The position numbers and the translations under genes are program-made. From contig JAKMFY010000020.1 of the NCBI GenBank assembly GCA_022425185.1, positions 1 to 23,618 on the forward strand: DNA of 23,618 nt, written 5' to 3'. This document shows, piece after piece, positions 2,108 through 22,501 of this stretch. Position 1 is the first letter of the stretch, and each line of letters begins with the position of its first letter. Source of the DNA: Candidatus Poseidoniaceae archaeon. GTDB lineage: Archaea > Thermoplasmatota > Poseidoniia > Poseidoniales > Poseidoniaceae. The notes under the pieces are model-generated. The model was not told the DNA's origin and did no database searches. It saw only the letters and a list, made by a program, of their open reading frames with translations.

Positions 2108-5100
2108 TCAGACATTATCCCAATCCAAGACCTCTTCCTCGGAGTCATCGGATGTATCTTCCTCTGAGTCATTCTTGTCTTCCATTCCGTTTCCAAAAAC
2201 GCCCCATGTATCGATTAATTTCATCTCAGCGTTGACTTGCCGGCGACGTTGAATTGTGATGAGTAGGCCAACGAGAAGAACAAGAGAAACCGCTCCAATT
2301 AATACTGGAGTCGACAAGAAACCGCCGCCATCTTCATCAACGACTTTTAACGGTTCAAAGAGAATGTCGATATTGGCATTCTCACCTTCACCATCTGTTG
2401 CAATGACTTTCAAACTTGGAGTACCCTTTCCTTCAGGTTGGAATTCAAGTGACCCTGTCCAGACAGAATCTCCATCATCATCAGAGAGATTGAAACTCCA
2501 TGATTGAATGAGGTGATTAATATCGACACGCACATCATCTGTTGAGCCATCCGCATCAACTAACTGAACCGAAACCTCTAGAATTACAATTTCACCAGAT
2601 ACGAATTCTGTTTGTGAAAGCTGCAAACTGGTTTGTACCAACTCCGGCAGACTCGACCGTACTGTGAAGTTGATGTGATCTTGTGAGAAAGCACCGCGGG
2701 AATCCTCCACGTAGAGAGAGAGATGATGAGACCCTGGTGCAAAGACTTGAGAGAACGTCGATTGTGTGCTTAAGACTGTCACTTGGCCGTTGTTTTGCTG
2801 GGTTGTAGAAGGCCATAGCCTCCATTCGCGAACAACAAGATCTCCATCTGCATCTGATGAATCGCCCTCAAAGAGTATGGTCACACCCGGATCAATTGAT
2901 TCGAGATTTAGTGGTGAGAGAATCGTAGCAACAGGATCGCTTGCCTCAATGATCAAGTGTACATATTCAATTCGAATTGCTCCAGTCGAATCAATCAATT
3001 CAATTTGTACGTCCTGTTCGCCTACATCAAGATTGACTGAATGCGTAATTGATGCATTAACATCAGTTAGCAATGGGACGTAAGTTTCTGTTCCTGAATC
3101 GTATTCCCGAATTGTCATTGTAAACTCATCGCCATCGTAATCAATGCTTGAACGGGCATCAAAGAGAATCATATCCTTTGATGAATGACTGCTGTTATTC
3201 TGTGGTGAATCAAGACCGAGAACTGGAGCCGATGTCGAGACTGAAAGCGAACGGGTCGTTGTCACTGCAGGGTTGATACCGTCACTAATAGAGAGAGTAA
3301 TGACATGTTCACCTGAACTCAATCGTTCTTCGAACGTCAACCAATCCTCATCTTCAGGAGTGAGAAGACCATCTACATCGCTCATCCAAACAATTTGAAG
3401 GAATTCCGAACCTGCTGCAGGTTCAAGTTCTGTACAATGCCAATCTCCTCCTTCTGGGAAAGTTGAACAGGCTGAATCCCAGTCACCACTTCCATTGGCA
3501 CTAAACGGGATGAGGATTGAAGAATCAAGATTATCAAAGACATCGAGATCTTCAATAATCGCTCTAGGAACGGAATTATCGATGGTAATAAGTTCAGAAT
3601 ACACAGACATTTGTCCACCATGCTCCATTCGGTTATCGGTTACCCTCAACTCAATTTGGTGAACGCCTCTCGAAAGATATCCGTCCCAAGAAATATTCTC
3701 GATGTTATTCCCCACCATTAGAGTTCCATCGACGTTGGACCACCATTCAAATGAAACATCATTTCCTTCAGGATCGTATGATGAACTGCCATTGAAGAAA
3801 ATAATATCTTCACTTGCAGTTCCATTTCTCTCAAGGGTAAACGACGATTCCGGCATTTCGTTGTACAATTTAACTTCAACTGAATAGGTATCGTTGTTAC
3901 CCACATCATCAAAGGCAATGACGGTCAAGAAAAAGGAAGCAGGAGGATCGTCTGTAAAATGATCAAAGGTGTACGAAAGTTCCTGTGGACAAGTATACTG
4001 ATTGCCCCAACCCGTACCTTGGCGGTTGTAACCACCGAATTTGATGAGGCATGCAAAATCGTCTCCCTCAGGATCAAATGTTCCAGTGGTATTGATCACA
4101 ACCGTACCAGTTTGTGGCATAATCAGTTCACTGAACTGAGTTAAACTCGGTTCAAATGTCACATTCAATTCAGGAGCGAGATTGGTTAATTCAATTGTTC
4201 TACTTTCCGAAACACAATGTCCAGCATCATCACAAACTTCCAGTGTAAGAGTATGAAGTCCATCAGATAAGCCACATGCCCATTGATCGTTCGTATTCGC
4301 TGTAAATGGCACTCCGTTACTTGGACCGTTTGAGGGGCCCCATGATCCCGTACATGATGATTCAATGTCTCCATCAAGGTCGCTTGTCCATACAAAGGTG
4401 AGTTCATCTTCATCCAAATCCCATGTATCTGATGCATTGAACACGACAGCGCCTTGTGATGGGAAAACCGAACCATCTAACGGAGAAGTCCACATCAAGA
4501 ACGGCTCTTGGTTATCTAAATCCAAAAGACAATACATAATTTGGTCAGAATCAAGAACGGTTGTGGTTGAATTACTTACGCTATCATATCCGCAGTTTAC
4601 TGTTACGTCATTGTATGCCGACGGCCCCGTATTGCTCCATCGTTGACCAATAAAATCGGTTAGTTGTACTGTCCCTATGTCATTGGTAAACTTGGATACA
4701 GATGGCTCAAATTGACTAAATGAAACGTTTGCAAAAGCCGCGGGAACACCATTGGAGAGGTTGTTAACAACCCAAATAGTAACATCCCAAGCGATGTCAA
4801 TCGTAGCGCCTGTTGGGATGTTGGCAATGGTCAAATCCAAATTGTTCGGTTGGTGAAGATGAAGAGTTGAAGAAGCGTCAAGGTCTAGAATATGATTCCC
4901 TGTAGCGTCAAGAAAATTAGAGAAGTTGACATCAGCATTTTCTAAGAAAATATTTCCAGTACAGTCTGAATCGATTGTGTTCCCATAGCCTCCTAAATTT
5001 GGATGATTCACTAATTTCAGACATTCAGTACCTCGTAGAACCGTATTGCTGAGTGTGGAAGGATAAGCCCCGTTATGGTTGGCATCCCAGAAGATTCCAG

Positions 5101-14590: not shown

Positions 14591-15721
14591 GTGGTTAGTG
14601 ACGTGGCTATGGACGAACTTTCTGCAGTCATTGTTCCCATCCAATTTGGAGAGGTTATGTACGAAAATCTTCGTCGATTAAATGCCTTGAACAAACAGTA
14701 TTCACCTGTACGTATCAACGAAGAACTCGCACTTCCAATTCATTCTGAAATCACCTCTTTTCATTCAATGGAGATTCCTTACAGAATTGAACGAATGAAG
14801 TTTGAACATTCACCACCTTCATTGAATCCTCACCAGCAATTGAAGGAAGTAATTCAGGGACTGATTCCTCAAGGGATGGGACATGTTTTGGAGTTCATAC
14901 CTACAAAATGGGAACGCTTAGATGATCTTATTCTTTTTCCGAAAGAAGCGTTTACTCAACCTATTTGGGACGAGATAATTGAAGATAAGAACGACTTCTT
15001 TGAACAGATTGCAAATGTATTGCAAGGACAAAGAGTTGGACGTCAACAACCAATTGCAAACGACACAATTCGCTCATCTCAGATGGAATTATTGCTTGGC
15101 GATTCTGGTTGGGTCGAGGTAAAAGACAACGGATTGTTCTATGGATTTGATGCATGTAAAGTGATGTACTCTTCGGGAAATGTTACCGAACGACACAGAA
15201 TGGGCTCACTTGATGTTAAGGGTGAAATCGTAGTTGATGCCTTTGCAGGGATAGGATACTATTCCCTGCCTTTGCTTGTACATGGGAAAGCCGCCCATGT
15301 GCATGCTTGTGAGTTAAATCCGGAGAGTATCAAGGCGTTGAAATGGGCTGCTGAAAAGAATGGTGTTTCCCATTCGATTACAATCTATGAAGGAGATAAT
15401 CAGTCAACACTCCCTACATTACGAGGCATAGCAGATCGGGTCCTTTTGGGATTACTTCCAAGTTCTGAAGCAACGTGGAAGCCTGCTATTTCAGCACTCA
15501 AAGAGGAGGGTGGAACCCTCCATATTCACATGAATGTTGAAGAAGAACATATCGAACAATGGATGATAGATACAATTCAAACTTGCTTGGGTTTTTCAAA
15601 ACAAGATGGCCGTGACTGGTACTGTACCTATCAACATCTTGAGAAGGTAAAGTGGTACGCACCACGTGTACGTCACGTCGTACTCGATGTTTCATTCTCA
15701 TCAAGTAACTCTGCATCATAG
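14591..15721 (+). CDS. taw2: tRNA-Phe wybutosine synthesis aminocarboxypropyltransferase (Taw2/TYW2)
   Basis: 376 residues from GTG 14591; ATG 14609 (Met7, 370 residues) is more likely. Trm5/TYW2 family. Taw2 transfers the 3-amino-3-carboxypropyl group of SAM to the imG-14 tricyclic base at position 37 of tRNA-Phe. RVGRQQPIANDTIRSSQMELL (about 148-168), FYGFDACKVMYSSGNVTERHRMG, and the SAM-binding VVDAFAGIGYYSLP (214-227) are typical of the Trm5/TYW2 superfamily. The key sign is DRVLLGLLPSSEATW (282-296). TYW2 enzymes have LGLxPSSE here, whereas Trm5 methyltransferases have an NLP motif. ACELNPESIKALKWAAEKN (239-257) is the acidic-loop region that binds the SAM ribose. The last 49 bases overlap the end of the facing cyclophilin gene. 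Partners Taw1, Taw3 and Trm5 are not in the window. Confidence 0.9.
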   Translation: MVSDVAMDELSAVIVPIQFGEVMYENLRRLNALNKQYSPVRINEELALPIHSEITSFHSMEIPYRIERMKFEHSPPSLNPHQQLKEVIQGLIPQGMGHVLEFIPTKWERLDDLILFPKEAFTQPIWDEIIEDKNDFFEQIANVLQGQRVGRQQPIANDTIRSSQMELLLGDSGWVEVKDNGLFYGFDACKVMYSSGNVTERHRMGSLDVKGEIVVDAFAGIGYYSLPLLVHGKAAHVHACELNPESIKALKWAAEKNGVSHSITIYEGDNQSTLPTLRGIADRVLLGLLPSSEATWKPAISALKEEGGTLHIHMNVEEEHIEQWMIDTIQTCLGFSKQDGRDWYCTYQHLEKVKWYAPRVRHVVLDVSFSSSNSAS

Positions 15722-16701
15722 ACAGTCAATTCAGTTGATTCGCTTTTTTGGCTCAAGGCAAACATTGTACCGCCACCAATTGCAACTGCCAAACCGAGTA
15801 AAATTAAGATGAGAATTCCGCTTGAAACTCCTCCATCTTCGTCTCCAGCGACGCCTTGACCACTCAGTTCCCCATTTGGATCTGCGACACCAATCATCTC
15901 AATTTTGTTGATTCGAACCTCATAAACTGGACGTCCGGCTGATGAAAATGGATTATCAAGATCGGTTCCAGTTGCATCGTCTGATGTAGGCACTTCTGCA
16001 ATTGCTCTAACATGGCTCATCCCTTGGCGAACAATACCAAAGGTCGCATATCCGCCATCGTCTCTGTTCTCAGGATCGAGCCCGTGAGCTTCTGTTTCAG
16101 CAATATACCATTGTGAATCTGCAGAATCTTCTTCTGCACCTCGAGCCATTCCAATGGCTCCATCAACGTGACTTAGATTCTCATCATGCTCGAGTGGAAT
16201 GGTCTCACCTGTCCCTCCCGAGCCACAATTCAGATTTGTGGCAGGGTAAGCGAGGACTGTTGTACATTCTGGGTCTCCTGATTGAGTGACGAAATCATTG
16301 ATGACTCGATGGAAGAAAATACCATCATACAATCCATCTTCGACATGTTCAACCATGTTTTCAACCGTGATTGGAGCCCATTGAGGAAACAATTCAATGA
16401 TGATAACACCATTGACTTCGTCCTCAAAATGCCCTGGTGTGTATGTGACGTCAATGGAAAAAACTGGGTCGTTGTAGTAGGAATATTGCATTGGCGTGTC
16501 TTCAACGATTGGGCCATCTTCCCATGTTGATGGATCGATTCCATTGCTTCTCCAATCAGGCTCTTCTTGAGCAGATGTAAGGCTTGGCATCATCAGAAAG
16601 ATTGCAATAAGAACAAACGAAATCCTGTAGAGTCCGCCTCGTCGCATATCATAGCCATTGTGTGCTAATTCATCAAACATGCGTTCATTGTCGTTGGTCA
16701 T
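15673..16701 (-). CDS. Exported membrane-anchored cyclophilin (peptidyl-prolyl cis-trans isomerase)
   Basis: 342 residues. A hydrophobic signal segment (YRISFVLIAIFLMMPSLTSA, residues 25-44) ends in SAQ, a likely cleavage site. The cyclophilin domain covers about 80-270. It shows IIELFPQWAPITVENMVEHV (101-120), the active-site FFHRVINDFVTQSGDP (129-144, with His131-Arg132), GAIGMARGAEEDSADSQWYI (181-200) and FGIVRQGM (221-228). The usual QFFI strand reads QWYI. A Gly-rich linker leads to a C-terminal helix (about 294-316) and an acidic tail of about 25 residues, so the catalytic domain faces outward. It would speed proline isomerisation while exported proteins fold. ATG 16701 overlaps colD by 17 bases. 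Met19 (ATG 16647) gives a classical signal peptide and may be the true start. It is the last gene of the colC-like/colD operon. Confidence 0.9.
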   Translation of the reverse strand: MTNDNERMFDELAHNGYDMRRGGLYRISFVLIAIFLMMPSLTSAQEEPDWRSNGIDPSTWEDGPIVEDTPMQYSYYNDPVFSIDVTYTPGHFEDEVNGVIIIELFPQWAPITVENMVEHVEDGLYDGIFFHRVINDFVTQSGDPECTTVLAYPATNLNCGSGGTGETIPLEHDENLSHVDGAIGMARGAEEDSADSQWYIAETEAHGLDPENRDDGGYATFGIVRQGMSHVRAIAEVPTSDDATGTDLDNPFSSAGRPVYEVRINKIEMIGVADPNGELSGQGVAGDEDGGVSSGILILILLGLAVAIGGGTMFALSQKSESTELTVYDAELLDENETSSTT

Positions 16702-17860
16702 CGAGGCACGATTTCAACAGGTCAGCAAATTCTGCAAGTTGTTGCGATATGTCATAGTGGTGGTTACCGACAAAGAAACCTTGTTCATGGATTTTATTTG
16801 CAGCATCAAGCGGGCCATGAATACTGTGATCAAGGTGTTCAATAACGGGATTGAGGGTGAAATTACCTGCAACGATTGGTCTGGTTTCAATACCAGCTTC
16901 TCGAAGAACATCGAGAACAGGAGCACGTTCACACCAATCAGGTAACACAATTGAAAAGCCAAACCACGACGATTCGCCAATCTCTTTTTGAATCATGATT
17001 TCTGGCACCTCTTTCAACAAATTCTGGAACGTTACTGCATTCTTTCTTCTTCCTGAAATGATGCCATTCACTTTACGAAGTTGTGCTTGTCCAATGGCAC
17101 CTGACATTTCAAGCGGGCGTAGATTGTATCCTGGAAGGACGAAGCGGAATGATTCCATAAATGGGTCATTTGATTTCTCAACAACGTGATTTTCTTGAGG
17201 AAGATTCCTGGTCCAGCCGTGAGCGCGAAGTGAAAGCATAACGTGGTACAACTCTTCATCATCAGTGACCGTAACACCACCTTCCATTGTTGAGATATGG
17301 TGACTAAAGAAGCAACTGAAGGTGCCAGCAAGACCGAATGTCCCCGCTTGCTTACCATCGATTGTCGCCCCTAGAGATTCACAGTTATCTTCGATGACAT
17401 ACAAATTGTTCTTTTCTGCGATTTCTAATAATCGATGATAATCAACAGAGTTTCCAAGAAGATTAACTGCGAAAATGAGTTTTGTTTTCTCAGTAATTGC
17501 TGCCTCGATTGCATCAAGATCAATATTCAATGTTTCTTCATTAATATCGACAAAGCGCATTGTGAGCCCATATTGATGCACTGGAAAATATGTGGTTGAC
17601 CAAGAGACAGCTGGTACGAGAACCTCATCCCCTGGCTTCAAGTCAATTCCTTTAGCGTAAATCATTCCTGCAACTGCAAGAAGATTTGCGGAAGAACCTG
17701 AATTGGACATAAGTGCGTATTTTGCTCCGAAGAATGAAGCAAATTCTTTCTCGAATTTTTCGACTTCTGGTCCCATACTGAAACGATCGCTTTCGATTAC
17801 TCGTTGAATCGCATCGTATTCTTCATGGTCCCAAGTACTGGTTGCTAGTGGTAAACTCAT
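16685..17860 (-). CDS. colD: GDP-4-keto-6-deoxy-mannose 3-dehydratase (ColD-type, DegT/DnrJ/EryC1/StrS family)
   Basis: 391 residues of the PLP-dependent DegT/DnrJ fold type I, close to the length of bacterial ColD. The cofactor site is SNSGSSANLLA (52-62) and VIEDNCESLGA (155-165, with the PLP-pyridine Asp158). The lysine that binds PLP in aminotransferases is replaced: FSHHISTMEGG (185-195) has His at 187. A His here defines the sugar 3-dehydratases ColD and E1/RfbH. There is no [2Fe-2S] cysteine set as in E1, and RAHGWTRNLP (212-221) with LPGYNLRPLEMSGAIG (242-257) reads as ColD. ColD removes the 3-hydroxyl of GDP-4-keto-6-deoxy-D-mannose, using glutamate and PMP. The start codon overlaps the upstream reductase stop (ATGA) and has GGAGGT 6 bases before it. 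Gmd, which makes the substrate, is not in the window. Confidence 0.87.
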   Translation of the reverse strand: MSLPLATSTWDHEEYDAIQRVIESDRFSMGPEVEKFEKEFASFFGAKYALMSNSGSSANLLAVAGMIYAKGIDLKPGDEVLVPAVSWSTTYFPVHQYGLTMRFVDINEETLNIDLDAIEAAITEKTKLIFAVNLLGNSVDYHRLLEIAEKNNLYVIEDNCESLGATIDGKQAGTFGLAGTFSCFFSHHISTMEGGVTVTDDEELYHVMLSLRAHGWTRNLPQENHVVEKSNDPFMESFRFVLPGYNLRPLEMSGAIGQAQLRKVNGIISGRRKNAVTFQNLLKEVPEIMIQKEIGESSWFGFSIVLPDWCERAPVLDVLREAGIETRPIVAGNFTLNPVIEHLDHSIHGPLDAANKIHEQGFFVGNHHYDISQQLAEFADLLKSCLDDQRQ

Positions 17861-18777
17861 TGTAATACCTCCCTGAGATGGTCATACGTGAACATCAATG
17901 CTTCTTCAAATTGCGTTTTTGGTGACCAGCCGAATTCTTTCTGCTTTGAAAGTTCCAAACAGCGTCGTTTTCGGCCTACTGGACGGTTTAAATCATGCTG
18001 GAGTTCACCGCCATAGCCAATTACTTTGGCCATGTACTGATGCATCTCATTGACGCTTACTTCAACTCCGGAACCAACATTCATGACCTCTGGTAATTCA
18101 GAAAATCTCGACAATGCTGTATTCAAAAAATCAGCCAAATCTGGTGCGTAGAGAAATTCTCTCTTAGCAGTGCCATCTCCCCAGATGACAATCGGCTTGT
18201 TTCCATTTTCTTTTGCTTGATGCATTCGATGAAGAATGGCAGGCAACATATGACCGGTTTCCAGAGAGAAGTTGTCATAGGGCCCGAATAAATTGCATGG
18301 ATGAACGGTTTTGAACGAGACTCCATGTTGTTCATTTGCCATAGCGCATGCCCTATAAACCACGTATTTGGATAGAGCATAGCCTTCGATTGGCCCCTCA
18401 AAAGCGCCATCTCCTAGAGAATCTTCTCTCAACGGTTGAGGGGCATCGTTTGGATATACGGTCGCACTTCCAACATTGATCATGTTGCTGATTCCATGTT
18501 CAACACACCCTCGAATAAGATTGAGCCCCATCATCACGTTGCTATCAAAAGAATGGTGTTTCGTCGTTGTATTGGAAGCAATTCCAGAAACATAAGCGGC
18601 GCAATGAATAACTGCATCAATCTTGATCGATTTCAAAAAATTCATCGTCGTATTCGAATCGGTTAAGTCCAATTCTTCACGGTTTGGAGAATGAACGGTA
18701 TGGCCTGATTTCTCAAGCAGTGGAACGAGGTGACGCCCCAACATCCCAGAGCCGCCTGTCACGAGAACATTGGCCAT
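17857..18777 (-). CDS. GDP-fucose-synthase-like SDR epimerase/reductase, probable GDP-3,6-dideoxyhexose synthase (ColC-like)
   Basis: 306 residues, an extended short-chain dehydrogenase of the GDP-L-fucose synthase (GMER/Fcl) and ColC group. The NADP site is VTGGSGMLGRHL (6-17). The catalytic triad is Ser104 (GSATVYP), Tyr133 and Lys137 (YALSK). HPCNLFGPYDNFSLETGHMLP (159-179) and VIWGDGTAKREFLYAPDLADF (197-217) are close to GMER, with His176 at the place of the catalytic His. The catalytic Cys of GMER (Cys109 in E. coli, in GSSCIYP) aligns with Thr106 here, so C-5/C-3 epimerisation may be lost or changed. Coupling to colD suggests it reduces the C-4 keto group of the ColD product to a GDP-3,6-dideoxyhexose. 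Plain GDP-fucose synthase or GDP-rhamnose reductase are alternatives. It is probably the first gene of its operon, with a TATA-like box about 26 bases upstream. Confidence 0.85.
   Translation of the reverse strand: MANVLVTGGSGMLGRHLVPLLEKSGHTVHSPNREELDLTDSNTTMNFLKSIKIDAVIHCAAYVSGIASNTTTKHHSFDSNVMMGLNLIRGCVEHGISNMINVGSATVYPNDAPQPLREDSLGDGAFEGPIEGYALSKYVVYRACAMANEQHGVSFKTVHPCNLFGPYDNFSLETGHMLPAILHRMHQAKENGNKPIVIWGDGTAKREFLYAPDLADFLNTALSRFSELPEVMNVGSGVEVSVNEMHQYMAKVIGYGGELQHDLNRPVGRKRRCLELSKQKEFGWSPKTQFEEALMFTYDHLREVLQ
17867..17872 (-). promoter_or_regulatory. Strong Shine-Dalgarno site of colD
   Basis: On the minus strand GGAGGT (within AGGGAGGT) lies inside the last codons of the upstream reductase, 6 bases before the colD ATG at 17860. 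Together with the ATGA overlap it fixes the colD start and indicates coupled translation. Confidence 0.75.
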
Positions 18778-18798
18778 GCGTCGTGCTACTACCTCGAC

Positions 18799-18808
18799 CT
18801 TAAATAGG
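18799..18808 (-). promoter_or_regulatory. Archaeal TATA-like box upstream of the dideoxysugar operon
   Basis: On the minus strand CCTATTTAAG is centred about 26 bases before the ATG at 18777. This is the spacing expected from a TATA box to a transcription start at or next to the start codon, so the first gene may be leaderless. A GAGGT 13 bases from the ATG is rather far to act as an SD site. The 88-base gap 18778-18865 must also hold the promoter of the divergent glycosyltransferase operon, for which I see no clear box. Confidence 0.5.
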
Positions 18809-18850
18809 AATGTCCATAGGGAAAATCAGTCACTTTGGTGAGGAAGATAA

Positions 18851-18855
18851 GAGGG
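18851..18855 (+). promoter_or_regulatory. Shine-Dalgarno site deciding a TTG start
   Basis: GAGGG lies 10 bases before TTG 18866. A TGA in the same frame at 18857-18859 rules out any earlier start, so TTG is the first possible initiation codon ahead of the conserved N-terminal strand. Confidence 0.5.
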
Positions 18856-18865
18856 TTGATGTATT

Positions 18866-19621
18866 TTGAAAATCCTCATCTGTACAATCTCTCGCAACAA
18901 TGCAAAGCGATTAAAGAAATGGAATCGACAACTGAACTCTTTACTCGACAACCTCTTACAGAACAATTCTGTGGAACTTTCAATTTACGAAAATGATTCT
19001 ACAGATGGGACTGGGCAAATCCTCACTCAATATGCTTCTGAATTGTCCAAAAGATGCACAACGACATTTACTTCAACCAAACTCGGAACTGAACATTTGA
19101 TCGGAAAGGAAGGAGCGAGAGTCAAAAATATTGCTGCTGCACGGAACAATTGCCTTGAGCAGGCCTCGGATCTAGGCATGTTTGAGAAGATCATTTTTGT
19201 CGAAACAGATGTCATTTACAACCCATCTGATGTTTTGACAATGTTGCATCACCCAGGAGACATCGTATCAGGATTTACAACCAATGCCATGGGAGAATTC
19301 TACGACGCTTGGGCAACCAGGAAAACATCGGAAGAAACATGGTGGAATCACGGTATTCCTGAGGTAGAAACCCCTGTATGGTCGACGTTCAACGGAGTTT
19401 GCGTCTACAATTCTAAACCCTTCTCTGAAGGCGCTAGGTTTGCTGGAATAAATCCAAGAACGAATGAAATTGATTGCGATACTACTGTCATTTGTGAGGT
19501 GTTTCGGATTATGAAAGCCAGTGAAATCATTATGCTTCCGATCAAAGTCCGACATCCACCAAATACATTCAAGGAACGTCTTTATTTTCTCAAACAACGC
19601 TTCCTTAGAAGAGGTGCATAA
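18866..19621 (+). CDS. GT-A glycosyltransferase resembling CAP59-type mannosyltransferases
   Basis: 251 residues starting with TTG. The N-terminal strand KILICTISRNNAKRLKKW is followed by VELSIYENDSTDGTGQIL (36-53). ARVKNIAAARNNCLEQA (84-100) and KIIFVETDVIYNPSDVLTML (108-127) come next, with ETD at 112-114 as the likely metal site. The order SIYENxSxDxT, RNxxL, DVxxxxxD is that of the eukaryotic CAP59/CMT1 alpha-1,3-mannosyltransferase family, here in an archaeal setting. This assignment is by motif memory only. There is no signal peptide and no obvious membrane helix; the basic end KERLYFLKQRFLRRG could touch the membrane. It is the first gene of a three-gene operon divergent from the dideoxysugar genes, which suggests a role in adding a nucleotide-activated sugar to a surface glycan. 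Sugar and linkage are unknown. Confidence 0.75.
   Translation: MKILICTISRNNAKRLKKWNRQLNSLLDNLLQNNSVELSIYENDSTDGTGQILTQYASELSKRCTTTFTSTKLGTEHLIGKEGARVKNIAAARNNCLEQASDLGMFEKIIFVETDVIYNPSDVLTMLHHPGDIVSGFTTNAMGEFYDAWATRKTSEETWWNHGIPEVETPVWSTFNGVCVYNSKPFSEGARFAGINPRTNEIDCDTTVICEVFRIMKASEIIMLPIKVRHPPNTFKERLYFLKQRFLRRGA
19611..19616 (+). promoter_or_regulatory. Shine-Dalgarno site fixing the start of the second glycosyltransferase
   Basis: GAGGTG lies 6 bases before ATG 19623, within the last codons of the previous gene. It supports 19623 over the longer in-frame start at 19521, which would add 34 residues overlapping the upstream gene. Confidence 0.7.
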
Positions 19622-19622
19622 A

Positions 19623-20516
19623 ATGAAAACCGCCCTCTTTACTGTTAGCTTTAATCGACCGGATTTAATGCAACAACTCCTCGATGGACTCAATGAAAAT
19701 ATAGACGACTTAGATGGACTTGATGTCTATCATTACATCGATGGCGGTCCTAAATCAGACCAACCTGCTATTCAAAAAATAATCGAGGATTCTGAAGTAC
19801 CATTCACTTCAATTGTTCTTCGAGAAGAGAATTACGGCGTAGGAAGGAACCTCATCGGAGCAAGACGTGATCTGTTTGATGCTCATGGATATGATCGTGT
19901 TATTTTGATTGAAGACGACCTTATTCCCGGACCGAACTTTATCAAAACAACACTCTCACTCGCAAATTGGGCGAAATCATTCAATGATGTTGGTATGGTT
20001 CAGGTATGGAATCTTCCACATCGAGAAATCACTGAAACTGACCTCGATATCGTTGAACCAACGCACGAGCATTTCTACTCGTATTGTATTGATGTCGAAG
20101 TTTGGAATGAAATTAAAGACACGATTTACGCATATGAAAGCCAGTACTTGCTAGGTGTATCCTATGCAAACAAGGACTGGAAAGCGATCCGGAAGAAATT
20201 CATGAAACCACGTTATAGTAAGAATCGAACGATGAGAGAATCACCTACACTTCTCTCATCAGATTATGAACATCCAGCTCCGTTTGGAAAGCGACTCAAG
20301 CGAACAGTTCCTACTGGACAAGATGCAATAACAGCACTCGCATTGTGGGAGAAAGGGTTTGTTCGTATCGCAACGCTTGCTCCAAGGGCAGTCATGAAGG
20401 GGATTGATGGCGTCCACAGCACTGCTGAAGTCTTTGACAAACTTGGACTCAACAAGCAAGCACAGTATGTTTGGCAACAAGAAGTTCCGCTTACATTTAG
20501 ACTTTTGAATGAATGA
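19623..20516 (+). CDS. GT-A glycosyltransferase with GnT-I-like EDD motif
   Basis: 297 residues from ATG 19623. The N-terminus TALFTVSFNRPDLMQQLLDGL (3-23) and LREENYGVGRNLIGARRDLF (66-85) precede RVILIEDDLIPGPNFI (92-107). E97-D98-D99 is the metal-binding motif in the same context as GT13 N-acetylglucosaminyltransferase I (EDDLxxxPxFF). TVPTGQDAITALALWEKG (228-245) may carry the catalytic acid side (Asp233). GIDGVHST follows near the C-terminus. No membrane segment is seen, so it should act in the cytoplasm on a lipid-linked or nucleotide-activated intermediate. It differs from its GT neighbour, so the pair is not a recent duplication. Donor and acceptor are unknown. Its stop overlaps the next start (ATGA). 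Confidence 0.75.
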   Translation: MKTALFTVSFNRPDLMQQLLDGLNENIDDLDGLDVYHYIDGGPKSDQPAIQKIIEDSEVPFTSIVLREENYGVGRNLIGARRDLFDAHGYDRVILIEDDLIPGPNFIKTTLSLANWAKSFNDVGMVQVWNLPHREITETDLDIVEPTHEHFYSYCIDVEVWNEIKDTIYAYESQYLLGVSYANKDWKAIRKKFMKPRYSKNRTMRESPTLLSSDYEHPAPFGKRLKRTVPTGQDAITALALWEKGFVRIATLAPRAVMKGIDGVHSTAEVFDKLGLNKQAQYVWQQEVPLTFRLLNE

Positions 20517-22501
20517 GTTCATGGCCTACTGTTAAGTCAAAGCATCGCCATCCTCTTCAAGGTCGACACATTGCGTATTACATGGCAGAGGAGGTACTGG
20601 GTGCAGAAGCCCTCGATATCCCTCCTACACCTGAGATTCCATCTCAGATAACTATTGAAGCCAAAACCGATTCTGCTCGTAGTCGAATCCAACTGAACAT
20701 CACGTTAGGAGCAACAATTGCATTTTGTATAACATTCCTCCTTTTTGCAATGACATTTGGTGAAATGCTCACATCAGAATCTGAGACTCAGTCTTCATAT
20801 GAATGGTGGGAAACACCCCTCGATGAACGTCACATGATGGATCTTCCTATGGATACAATGAGAGCACAGTTGCCCGAAAATGGAACCTACGAGATACTAC
20901 CCTATACGGAACATTTTGTAACGGTCGAATTACCAGCATCTGAACAAGATGTTGGGTTTCCTGATGAAGCGAAAATGCATGTAGCTATTTGGCTTCCAGA
21001 TGTTCCTGAAGGTACCAAGGTCCCTGTTATCATGACAATTCATCCGTACTATGACTTCGGGGGCGAAGGAATGCCGGGCGTTGGTGCTGATTCAAATCCA
21101 AACACAATCCCTGACGGTGGTGTAGGCAAGTGGGTCTATGACACGTTTGTACCTCACGGGTATGCTCTGGCTCAAGCAAGTACCTTTGGAACAGGGCAAT
21201 CCACACACTGTCAAGATGTGAAAGGACTTGGAGAACAAACAGGAATTCAGGCGGTTGTTGACTGGCTTGGAGTCCAGAACTGGTCGAATGGAAATGTCGG
21301 CTTGATGGGTAAATCCTATGCAGGTACAACCAACTGGGAAGCAGCTCAACAGCCATCTGAACATCTGAAGACCATCGTTCCAATTTCAGGTTCGATCGGT
21401 GTACAGGAAATGTTCTACCGAAATGGTTCCTCTGAAGCTCGAGCAATGGGGTATGATGCTGCATACCAAGCAGCAACGACTGATTTGACAACTGATGACC
21501 TGCGAGTCTGTTCCGATGACTTAGCAGGCCCCCTTAATCCATGGACGACCTATGCATGGGCTGAATTCGGTGGTGGAGATTGGAGCGATTATTGGGATGA
21601 GCGACGCCATTTACCAGATGTTCTCGAAAACTATCGAGGCAGCGTCTACTTAGTTTGGGGATTACAAGACTGGAACGTCGATCCTTATCATGCGTTCCCA
21701 ACCTATCAGTTGATGCGGGATGCTGGAATCAATGCTAGAGCTATTGCAGGCCAATGGGCACACAATTATCCTGATCAACCGGATCGACACAGTGAACTTG
21801 GAACAGGATACGGTGGAGAAGCCTATCCAAATATGAGTCGAATGGATTGGGCTGTTGAATTGTTTGGATGGTTCCAATATTATCTGAAAGACATCGGTGA
21901 CGAACCTGAGCCGATGGTGCAGATTCAAACAAACGATGGCCAATGGCACGTTGAGGAAACATGGCCTCCGGAAGACATGGTTTGGCAAATGGAAGAAATC
22001 GGAAGTGATTGGTCAGGCGATGGAGTGGTCAATGGACTGGGTGGTTCGGTTACTCTTACAAGCCCACAATACGAGGAAGCATTGCATATCTCTGGACTCC
22101 CCACATTGCATGTTGATGTAACAACACAAGCCTGTAATGGTGGTCAGATTTTTGCTACTATGTTCGATGATACGACAAACCTGCGCCTTGGTCATGCGAC
22201 TATGGATATTCGCTATCGTGATGGTGGATTTGAAGCAAATCCTGCAGCACCGTTTTCCGGATATACGATGTTAATGGAATTTAATCCAATGGATGTTATC
22301 GTCCCAGCTGGACATTCAATACGAATTGAACTTACAGAAACTGGAGAAGATTATCTTCCTGGTCCTTGTGCAACAAATCCACTTGGTGGATTATCTATTG
22401 ATGGAGGAATGATTGGCCTTCCATTGATCGATCGTCCTGTCAACGATGATGCTTGGTTCCTTGCTCCTGCTTGGTGGGAACAACAACCGATACCTGCTTG
22501 A
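20513..22501 (+). CDS. Membrane-tethered S15-family peptidase/CocE-NonD hydrolase (Xaa-Pro dipeptidyl-peptidase type)
   Basis: 662 residues. A cytoplasmic N-terminus of about 60 residues precedes one hydrophobic helix (LGATIAFCITFLLFAMTFGEM, 65-85), so the enzyme is probably a type II membrane protein facing outward. The alpha/beta hydrolase core (about 130-460) has the nucleophile elbow NVGLMGKSYAGTTNW (261-275, Ser268). The acid is in VWGLQDWNVD (381-390, Asp386 or Asp390) and the base is in GQWAHNYPD (413-421, His417). A beta-jelly-roll X-Pro-dipeptidyl-peptidase C-terminal domain covers about 470-660. S15 enzymes cleave X-Pro dipeptides; relatives hydrolyse esters, so substrate is open. 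It fits a protein- and peptide-scavenging heterotroph. ATGA overlap with the preceding glycosyltransferase and no own SD site suggest translational coupling. The stop abuts the facing gene at 22502. Confidence 0.88.
   Translation: MSSWPTVKSKHRHPLQGRHIAYYMAEEVLGAEALDIPPTPEIPSQITIEAKTDSARSRIQLNITLGATIAFCITFLLFAMTFGEMLTSESETQSSYEWWETPLDERHMMDLPMDTMRAQLPENGTYEILPYTEHFVTVELPASEQDVGFPDEAKMHVAIWLPDVPEGTKVPVIMTIHPYYDFGGEGMPGVGADSNPNTIPDGGVGKWVYDTFVPHGYALAQASTFGTGQSTHCQDVKGLGEQTGIQAVVDWLGVQNWSNGNVGLMGKSYAGTTNWEAAQQPSEHLKTIVPISGSIGVQEMFYRNGSSEARAMGYDAAYQAATTDLTTDDLRVCSDDLAGPLNPWTTYAWAEFGGGDWSDYWDERRHLPDVLENYRGSVYLVWGLQDWNVDPYHAFPTYQLMRDAGINARAIAGQWAHNYPDQPDRHSELGTGYGGEAYPNMSRMDWAVELFGWFQYYLKDIGDEPEPMVQIQTNDGQWHVEETWPPEDMVWQMEEIGSDWSGDGVVNGLGGSVTLTSPQYEEALHISGLPTLHVDVTTQACNGGQIFATMFDDTTNLRLGHATMDIRYRDGGFEANPAAPFSGYTMLMEFNPMDVIVPAGHSIRIELTETGEDYLPGPCATNPLGGLSIDGGMIGLPLIDRPVNDDAWFLAPAWWEQQPIPA

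Follow-up and report, generated by a model that had tools for sequence, protein, structure and literature searches.

In bacteria, GDP-L-colitose is made by ColD, a GDP-4-keto-6-deoxy-D-mannose 3-dehydratase, together with ColC (GDP-L-colitose synthase), which is a homolog of GDP-fucose synthase (GFS; Fcl in E. coli). The 3-dehydratases are marked by a change of Lys to His, and the iron-sulfur cluster of E1 is absent from ColD (review: PMC8987622; here and below, papers with PMC numbers are cited for selected sections of their text). The known form of tyvelose is CDP-linked (PMC7725333, PMC8987622). A genome survey from 2020 reported that the L-fucose and L-colitose pathways are absent from TACK archaea, which implies that both were found in other archaea (PMC7725333). 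Here we analyze a colC-colD gene pair in 23,618 nucleotides of DNA ("the window") from a Candidatus Poseidoniaceae archaeon (assembly GCA_022425185.1, contig JAKMFY010000020.1, positions 1 to 23,618). We modestly favor the view that this pair feeds a swappable glycan island and yields a GDP-3,6-dideoxy-D-hexose rather than GDP-L-colitose. The basis is comparison of sequences: the assignment of ColD, a GDP-mannose 4,6-dehydratase (GMD) in the same genome, a Thr/His dyad in the ColC homolog, the polymorphism of the island, and the co-occurrence of a GT69-like glycosyltransferase.

A colC-colD gene pair with a putative substrate supply

Both genes are on the minus strand of the window (contig C178 of a 1.67 Mb genome). 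The ColC/GFS homolog, a predicted C4-reductase without epimerase activity, has 306 amino acids and is encoded at 17857..18777; the ColD-type protein has 391 amino acids and is encoded at 16685..17860. The stop codon of colC and the start codon of colD overlap in an ATGA (17857..17860, minus strand), and GGGAGG lies upstream of the start of colD. A sequence-only reading of this DNA had pointed to these two open reading frames (ORFs), to their coupling, to nearby glycosyltransferase and exported-protein genes, and to a probable marine archaeon as the host. All of this stands. The nearest named records, whose ColD is 94-98% identical, are metagenome-assembled genomes (MAGs) from Poseidoniales or Euryarchaeota: two Candidatus Poseidoniales / Poseidoniaceae MAGs and four records titled Euryarchaeota or euryarchaeote.

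The pair is beyond chance, given the phmmer E-values (3e-133 for the 391-residue protein against ColD and 7e-60 for the 306-residue protein against GFS), the conservation of the pair in related genomes, and the low dN/dS (~0.02 for ColD, from the 2 of 4 pairs that could be used, and 0.08-0.10 for ColC, from 3 of 4). In bacterial loci, colC likewise precedes colD and overlaps it slightly, often with a gmd-sized ORF ahead of colC; two annotated plasmid records have the order gmd-colC-colD. The pair was most likely gained from bacteria, and the transfer would have run in that direction. A viral origin is unsupported: two scans of viral contigs with single-protein queries, which reach close relatives only, gave one ColD-like match at 33% identity and no ColC. 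The ColD-like match is encoded on an IMG/VR contig (L184).

From its sequence, the 391-residue protein is a ColD-type 3-dehydratase, and we predict that it has this activity. His187 (codon at 17300..17302, minus strand), within the segment FFSHHIS (encoded at 17291-17311), replaces the lysine that binds pyridoxal phosphate (PLP) in aminotransferases. It aligns with His188 of E. coli ColD, and two mutant ColD chains among the PDB matches differ from the wild type at exactly this residue. The column is Lys in all 4 aminotransferases that we aligned and His in 45/45 ColD and 2/2 RfbH. When ranked by phmmer against PDB, ColD scored 447 bits, E1 194 bits, and another putative 3-dehydratase 154 bits. 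The protein has four cysteines. E1-type [2Fe-2S] enzymes have cysteines spaced as CxC; this motif, and thus the E1-type cysteine set, is missing here. A phylogeny of 51 proteins places the 9 MGII (Marine Group II) sequences in one clade inside ColD (SH-aLRT 100; stem length 0.48); the 2 RfbH (His) and the 4 aminotransferases (Lys) fall outside ColD. Besides these six, the tree included the window's protein, 8 of the 15 named MGII loci that we fetched, 18 of the 34 bacterial loci, 16 of 120 database proteins, and 2 plasmid ColD; the rows closest to the MGII clade are unnamed database proteins. These bit scores and the tree lead us to reject an E1 or RfbH identity. The sequence-only reading had described a ColD-like enzyme of the DegT family with His for Lys and had suggested such a phylogeny, which agrees with its description.

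The presumed substrate could be supplied by the same genome. A GMD on contig C284 scores 442.5 bits, above the cutoff for TIGR01472 (415 bits), so we reject the idea that GMD is missing. The protein branches within ColD and the GMD exceeds its curated cutoff, so neither of the two weaknesses that the sequence-only reading had foreseen (an aminotransferase that works without Lys, or a genome without GMD) applies. That reading had also proposed looking for manC and manB. The genome encodes proteins that resemble their products, and both fall under the curated cutoffs: a mannose-1-phosphate guanylyltransferase-like protein (best NCBIfam match 204 bits, cutoff 440) and a PgmG phosphomannomutase-like protein (355 bits, cutoff 600).

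Among 115 genomes drawn from the order, GMD was found in 44, which represent 7 of 21 genera and include 5/5 genomes of the window's genus. ColD was found in just 4 of the 115, all from the window's genus. In a draw of 389 genomes from the phylum, ColD matched in 6: five from the genus and one distant homolog (39% identity) beside gmd. This homolog, from another family of Thermoplasmatota (locus L183 of genome G174), is a 430-residue protein with the motif FFSHAITTIEGG (1390-2682), directly before a gmd-like gene (2714-3709); these two genes are perhaps a second archaeal 3-dehydratase module. In some genera without ColD, gmd lies ~9-27 kb from the Taw2 gene that flanks our locus (G006, G051, G066, and G002; 76 kb in G022), while the genome of the window carries it on a different contig. 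In the order's other family, genome G106 encodes a Cys-type GFS (L092) that is 58% identical to E. coli Fcl and adjoins gmd, so Poseidoniales may also hold the ordinary fucose pathway.

The ColC homolog and its predicted product

The ColC homolog of the window has a GFS-type fold and the Ser/Tyr/Lys reductase triad, but it lacks the Cys/His epimerization dyad of ColC and Fcl and has the Thr/His dyad of DdahC instead. Thr106 (codon at 18460..18462, minus strand) takes the place of Cys109, the epimerization base of E. coli GFS. Position 109 is Cys in 37/37 bacterial ColC (all 34 beside ColD, plus 3 ColC-like plasmid proteins, each beside ColD) and in 5/5 Fcl (from E. coli, G106, and 3 plasmids); it is Thr in all 19 MGII homologs that cover the site. 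Among 2193 database matches, the best 120 all have Thr there and all keep Ser107, Tyr136, Lys140, and His179. As it lacks the Cys/His dyad, we do not class this protein as a GDP-colitose synthase. It also scores below the cutoff of the NCBIfam equivalog for GDP-L-fucose synthase (251.7 bits, cutoff 500). A fold search with a structural model recovered the GFS family and does not tell epimerases from reductases.

The MGII ColC has diverged out of step with ColD. Compared to 20 bacteria, the window's ColD averages 60.2% identity and its ColC 38.7% (range 35-41%), whereas pairs of bacteria with 60-64% identity for ColD have 48.9-63.1% identity for ColC (n = 29; the pair statistics cover 20 of 34 bacterial loci, or 190 pairs). 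Of the 24 columns that separate the 37 bacterial ColC from the 5 Fcl, 11 carry the ColC letter in MGII, 4 carry the Fcl letter, and 9 carry a letter particular to MGII. Another 20 columns that are near-invariant across ColC and Fcl are wholly or mostly altered in MGII, and several of these lie beside active-site motifs. A phylogenetic tree, from which we excluded a fragment (L006) and a sequence with many Ns (L157), groups MGII with bacterial ColC to the exclusion of Fcl (support 95), with a stem of 3.48 for MGII that calls for a long-branch warning. Because of the separating columns, the grouping in the tree, and the identity gap between ColC and ColD, the partner looks ColC-derived but remodeled.

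Lau and Tanner reportedly assigned the roles of Cys as base and His179 as acid in GFS in 2008. The two residues have these roles in both epimerizations, and the C116S variant of human GFS is ~440-fold slower and releases ~70% prematurely reduced sugar (PMC12362431). DdahC from Campylobacter jejuni, whose dyad is Thr110/His180, is a C4-reductase that is described as "devoid of epimerase activity" (PMC7949155). Also, C4-reductases from C. jejuni reduce a 3,6-dideoxy-4-keto heptose in vitro without epimerization (PMC10680097). The sequence-only reading had named GDP-colitose as the product. Given the loss of the epimerization Cys and the behavior of DdahC with the same dyad (PMC7949155), this is doubtful.

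We propose that GMD would convert GDP-mannose to GDP-4-keto-6-deoxy-D-mannose, and that ColD, with pyridoxamine phosphate (PMP) as cofactor, His187 as the base, and glutamate as the amino donor, would form GDP-4-keto-3,6-dideoxy-D-mannose by stripping the C3 hydroxyl. The ColC homolog would then reduce C4 without inverting C5. As the product of ColD has no stereocenter at C3, skipping the inversion at C5 would give a D sugar. The predicted product is a GDP-3,6-dideoxy-D-hexose, either D-arabino (tyvelose) or its C4 epimer (D-lyxo), and not GDP-L-colitose. If the facial preference of GFS holds, it would be GDP-3,6-dideoxy-D-arabino-hexose, which has the configuration of tyvelose. The adjoining GT69-like transferase probably passes the dideoxy sugar to a surface glycan or glycoprotein; a surface glycan is the likely destination. 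The full proposal, that GDP-tyvelose or its C4 epimer is made via a ColC turned pure reductase and is used at a serotype-like surface-glycan locus that is repeatedly swapped, is a tentative one, in which we place rather less confidence than in a D sugar from a swappable island.

Several observations weigh against a D sugar or its stated configuration. Human C116S still yields ~30% GDP-L-fucose (PMC12362431); GFS with Ser in place of Cys thus epimerizes weakly, and Thr need not abolish epimerization. The T110C variant of DdahC had a higher reductase efficiency, with no gain of epimerase activity reported in the sections covered (PMC7949155), so features other than the dyad may matter as well. 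One group of Campylobacter C4-reductases (r2) epimerizes C3 and C5, while the other groups tested do not (PMC10680097). The reductases of HS:3 and HS:53 have opposite outcomes at C4 (one product is D-arabino and the other D-lyxo; PMC10680097), so homology does not reveal the C4 configuration. The excess of ColC letters over Fcl letters at the separating columns indicates descent from ColC, and colitose synthesis could persist via another base. Finally, the window's genome is 76% complete.

The strongest alternative is that the pair makes GDP-L-colitose as in bacteria, with Thr106, a water, or another residue as the base and His179 as the acid, so that C5 is inverted before reduction. The gene pair, its order, and its short overlap match those of bacteria; some of the ColC-type letters, such as Cys161, are retained; His179 is kept in all of the best 120 matches; and the product of ColD needs inversion at C5 only, for which a weak base might suffice. 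But Cys109 is invariant in the bacterial ColC and the Fcl that we compared, the change of Cys to Ser is costly in human GFS, DdahC does not epimerize, and the 20 columns that are near-invariant in ColC and Fcl have changed. We consider this alternative unlikely, while it remains the most serious competitor.

Less probable still is that a separate RmlC-type epimerase, encoded elsewhere, inverts C5 and that ColC only reduces, which would give GDP-L-colitose or its C4 epimer. A route with a separate C5-epimerase and a reductase has been described for the GDP-3,6-dideoxy-heptoses of Campylobacter HS:5 and HS:11 (PMC10680097). By eye, we spotted no RmlC-type epimerase in the cassette or on the gmd contig; no genome-wide search was made.

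It is quite improbable that ColC reduces GDP-4-keto-6-deoxymannose to GDP-D-rhamnose while the ColD product goes to another enzyme. Four genomes of the genus encode ColC, with the same Thr, without a detected ColD, which fits a general C4-reductase. But the genes of the window overlap, 16 of the 17 genomes of the genus with ColD hold both, and we saw no other reductase gene in the cassette. Lastly, despite its membership in the DegT family, we reject the 391-residue protein as an ordinary sugar aminotransferase that tolerates the loss of Lys, which is highly improbable given the PDB scores (447 bits for ColD and at most 139 for aminotransferases) and its position inside the ColD clade.

A replacement glycan island

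The locus of the pair is a replacement glycan island, where alternative sugar cassettes occupy one site among close relatives. This is what the sequence-only reading missed, although it had the gene pair itself right. In the window, four genes fill the 3.8 kb between the conserved flanks of the site. One flank is an S15/CocE-type peptidase (20513..22501, plus strand). The other is an exported cyclophilin-type peptidyl-prolyl isomerase (15673..16701, minus strand), whose start is uncertain and, as called, overlaps colD by 17 bases. Beyond it lies a Taw2-like tRNA wyosine enzyme (14591..15721, plus strand), a conserved flank that we used to locate the site in other genomes.

The other two genes of the cassette encode glycosyltransferases. 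A CAP59/GT69-like protein of 251 amino acids (18866..19621, plus strand; Pfam PF11735, E = 1.8e-22) is a candidate for the dideoxy-sugar transferase; if its start is taken at TTG, 88 bp separate it from the divergent colC (18778..18865). Its Pfam family is named "Cryptococcal mannosyltransferase 1." That family uses GDP-mannose, and GDP-3,6-dideoxy-D-mannose might fit this transferase as a donor, although this is a weak argument. The second protein, which we will call GT297, has a GT-A fold, 297 amino acids, and no Pfam family (19623..20516, plus strand); its model is mediocre (pLDDT 68), and its best hit in Foldseek is GnT-I (1fo8, E = 8.6e-8).

Within the genus, we found at least six contents at this site (A to F). 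Content A, as in the window, has GT297, the GT69-like transferase, and ColC-ColD. Content B has GT297 and ColC with a TupA-like ATP-grasp protein, a Lys-type DegT protein, and a 221-residue protein, and content C combines the genes of A and B. Content D has two GT4-type glycosyltransferases, a protein with sub-threshold matches to methyltransferases, a relative of the 221-residue protein, and ColC. Content E has GT297, a GT4-type glycosyltransferase, and a 196-residue protein. Content F has two GT4-type glycosyltransferases, a methyltransferase, a relative of the 221-residue protein, and no ColC. The cassette of the Lys-type DegT aminotransferase, the TupA-like ATP-grasp protein, and the 221-residue protein (which has no Pfam family) lies at 5201-9057 of L125 and at 5435-8330 of L016; G136 and G140 (and, in part, G129) have it without ColD, and in G142 it follows ColD. 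A record titled Rhodobiaceae bacterium (L014, CALDQY010000081.1) looks mislabeled, as its match equals contig C81 of G055, which is from the window's genus.

Outside the genus, the site looks different. We read both flanks in 7 genomes from other genera; in all 7, the S15 peptidase gene lies within 0.5 kb of the cyclophilin gene, and there is no sugar gene at the junction. Six of these seven gaps (L128, L129, L131, L133, L135, and L138) contain one called ORF of 129-151 amino acids; the two that we scanned had no match in Pfam. An eighth locus (G045) had no match to S15.

Across 24 genomes of the genus, ColD is present in 17 (in five of these, contig ends truncate or divide the gene, leaving 45 residues in G149) and ColC in 20. 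We built a tree from four flank proteins in 21 of these genomes (G029, G149, and G152 were excluded); on it, the minimum number of changes in the ColD state is 4, as compared to a mean of 6.1 if the states are shuffled, so the ColD state is somewhat clustered. The sister pairs G008/G103 and G147/G143 differ in their ColD state. The count is still 4 if two ColD-negative genomes whose site was not seen whole (G129 and G153) are set to unknown. In the other five ColD-negative genomes (G103, G136, G140, G143, and G151), the site is occupied by other genes, so a gap in the assembly does not explain why ColD is missing there. The GT69-like gene is present in 16 of the 24 genomes: 16 of the 17 with ColD (the locus is cut in the exception, G150) and none of the 7 without (Fisher p = 2e-5, ignoring linkage and kinship).

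Comparison with known systems

The sequence-only reading knew of no described case in archaea. In this it was only partly right: an archaeal colitose pathway is already implied by parts of the 2020 survey (PMC7725333), and our searches of the open literature for colitose or tyvelose with archaea and for glycans of Poseidoniales or MGII, mostly of partial texts, turned up no paper that describes this locus. These searches also gave no description of O-antigen-like allele swapping in Poseidoniales, and "GDP-tyvelose" does not occur in the open papers searched. Some open-ocean archaea have a bacterial-type gene pair for a 3,6-dideoxy sugar, and its altered active site suggests a form of the sugar that differs from the bacterial one. 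For marine archaea that are widespread but uncultured, this would be a concrete pathway to a rare sugar, and one that can be tested; it suggests that D-series 3,6-dideoxyhexoses can be reached via GDP as well as via CDP. In Poseidoniales, the swapping of alleles at one defined site, as in O-antigen loci, is a possible basis for escape from viruses or grazers. As a caution, Cys109 should be checked before a ColC-ColD pair is taken to mean colitose.

The window's protein resembles ColD (PDB 2gms, 3gr9) in its 55-64% identity to 20 bacterial ColD, in its His for Lys, in lacking the CxC of E1-type iron-sulfur enzymes, and in adjoining a ColC homolog. It differs in its archaeal host and in forming a single clade on its own stem. 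The MGII partner resembles ColC in its fold, its triad, its His179, its ColC letters at 11 of 24 columns, and the order and overlap of its gene with colD, and differs in its Thr for the epimerization Cys, its 35-41% identity where ColD keeps 55-64%, and its long stem. As to the island, PMC8430335 describes O-antigen-like replacement flexible genomic islands, which differ from this locus: ours is small, with about four genes, belongs to an uncultured euryarchaeal genus, and has a putative role in the outer envelope. They are alike in that glycosyltransferase and sugar-nucleotide genes are swapped at one site among close relatives. The closest described parallel to the altered active site is DdahC, the GDP-6-deoxy-heptose C4-reductase of C. 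jejuni (PDB 7anh), which shares the GFS-family fold and has Thr/His in place of Cys/His (PMC7949155).

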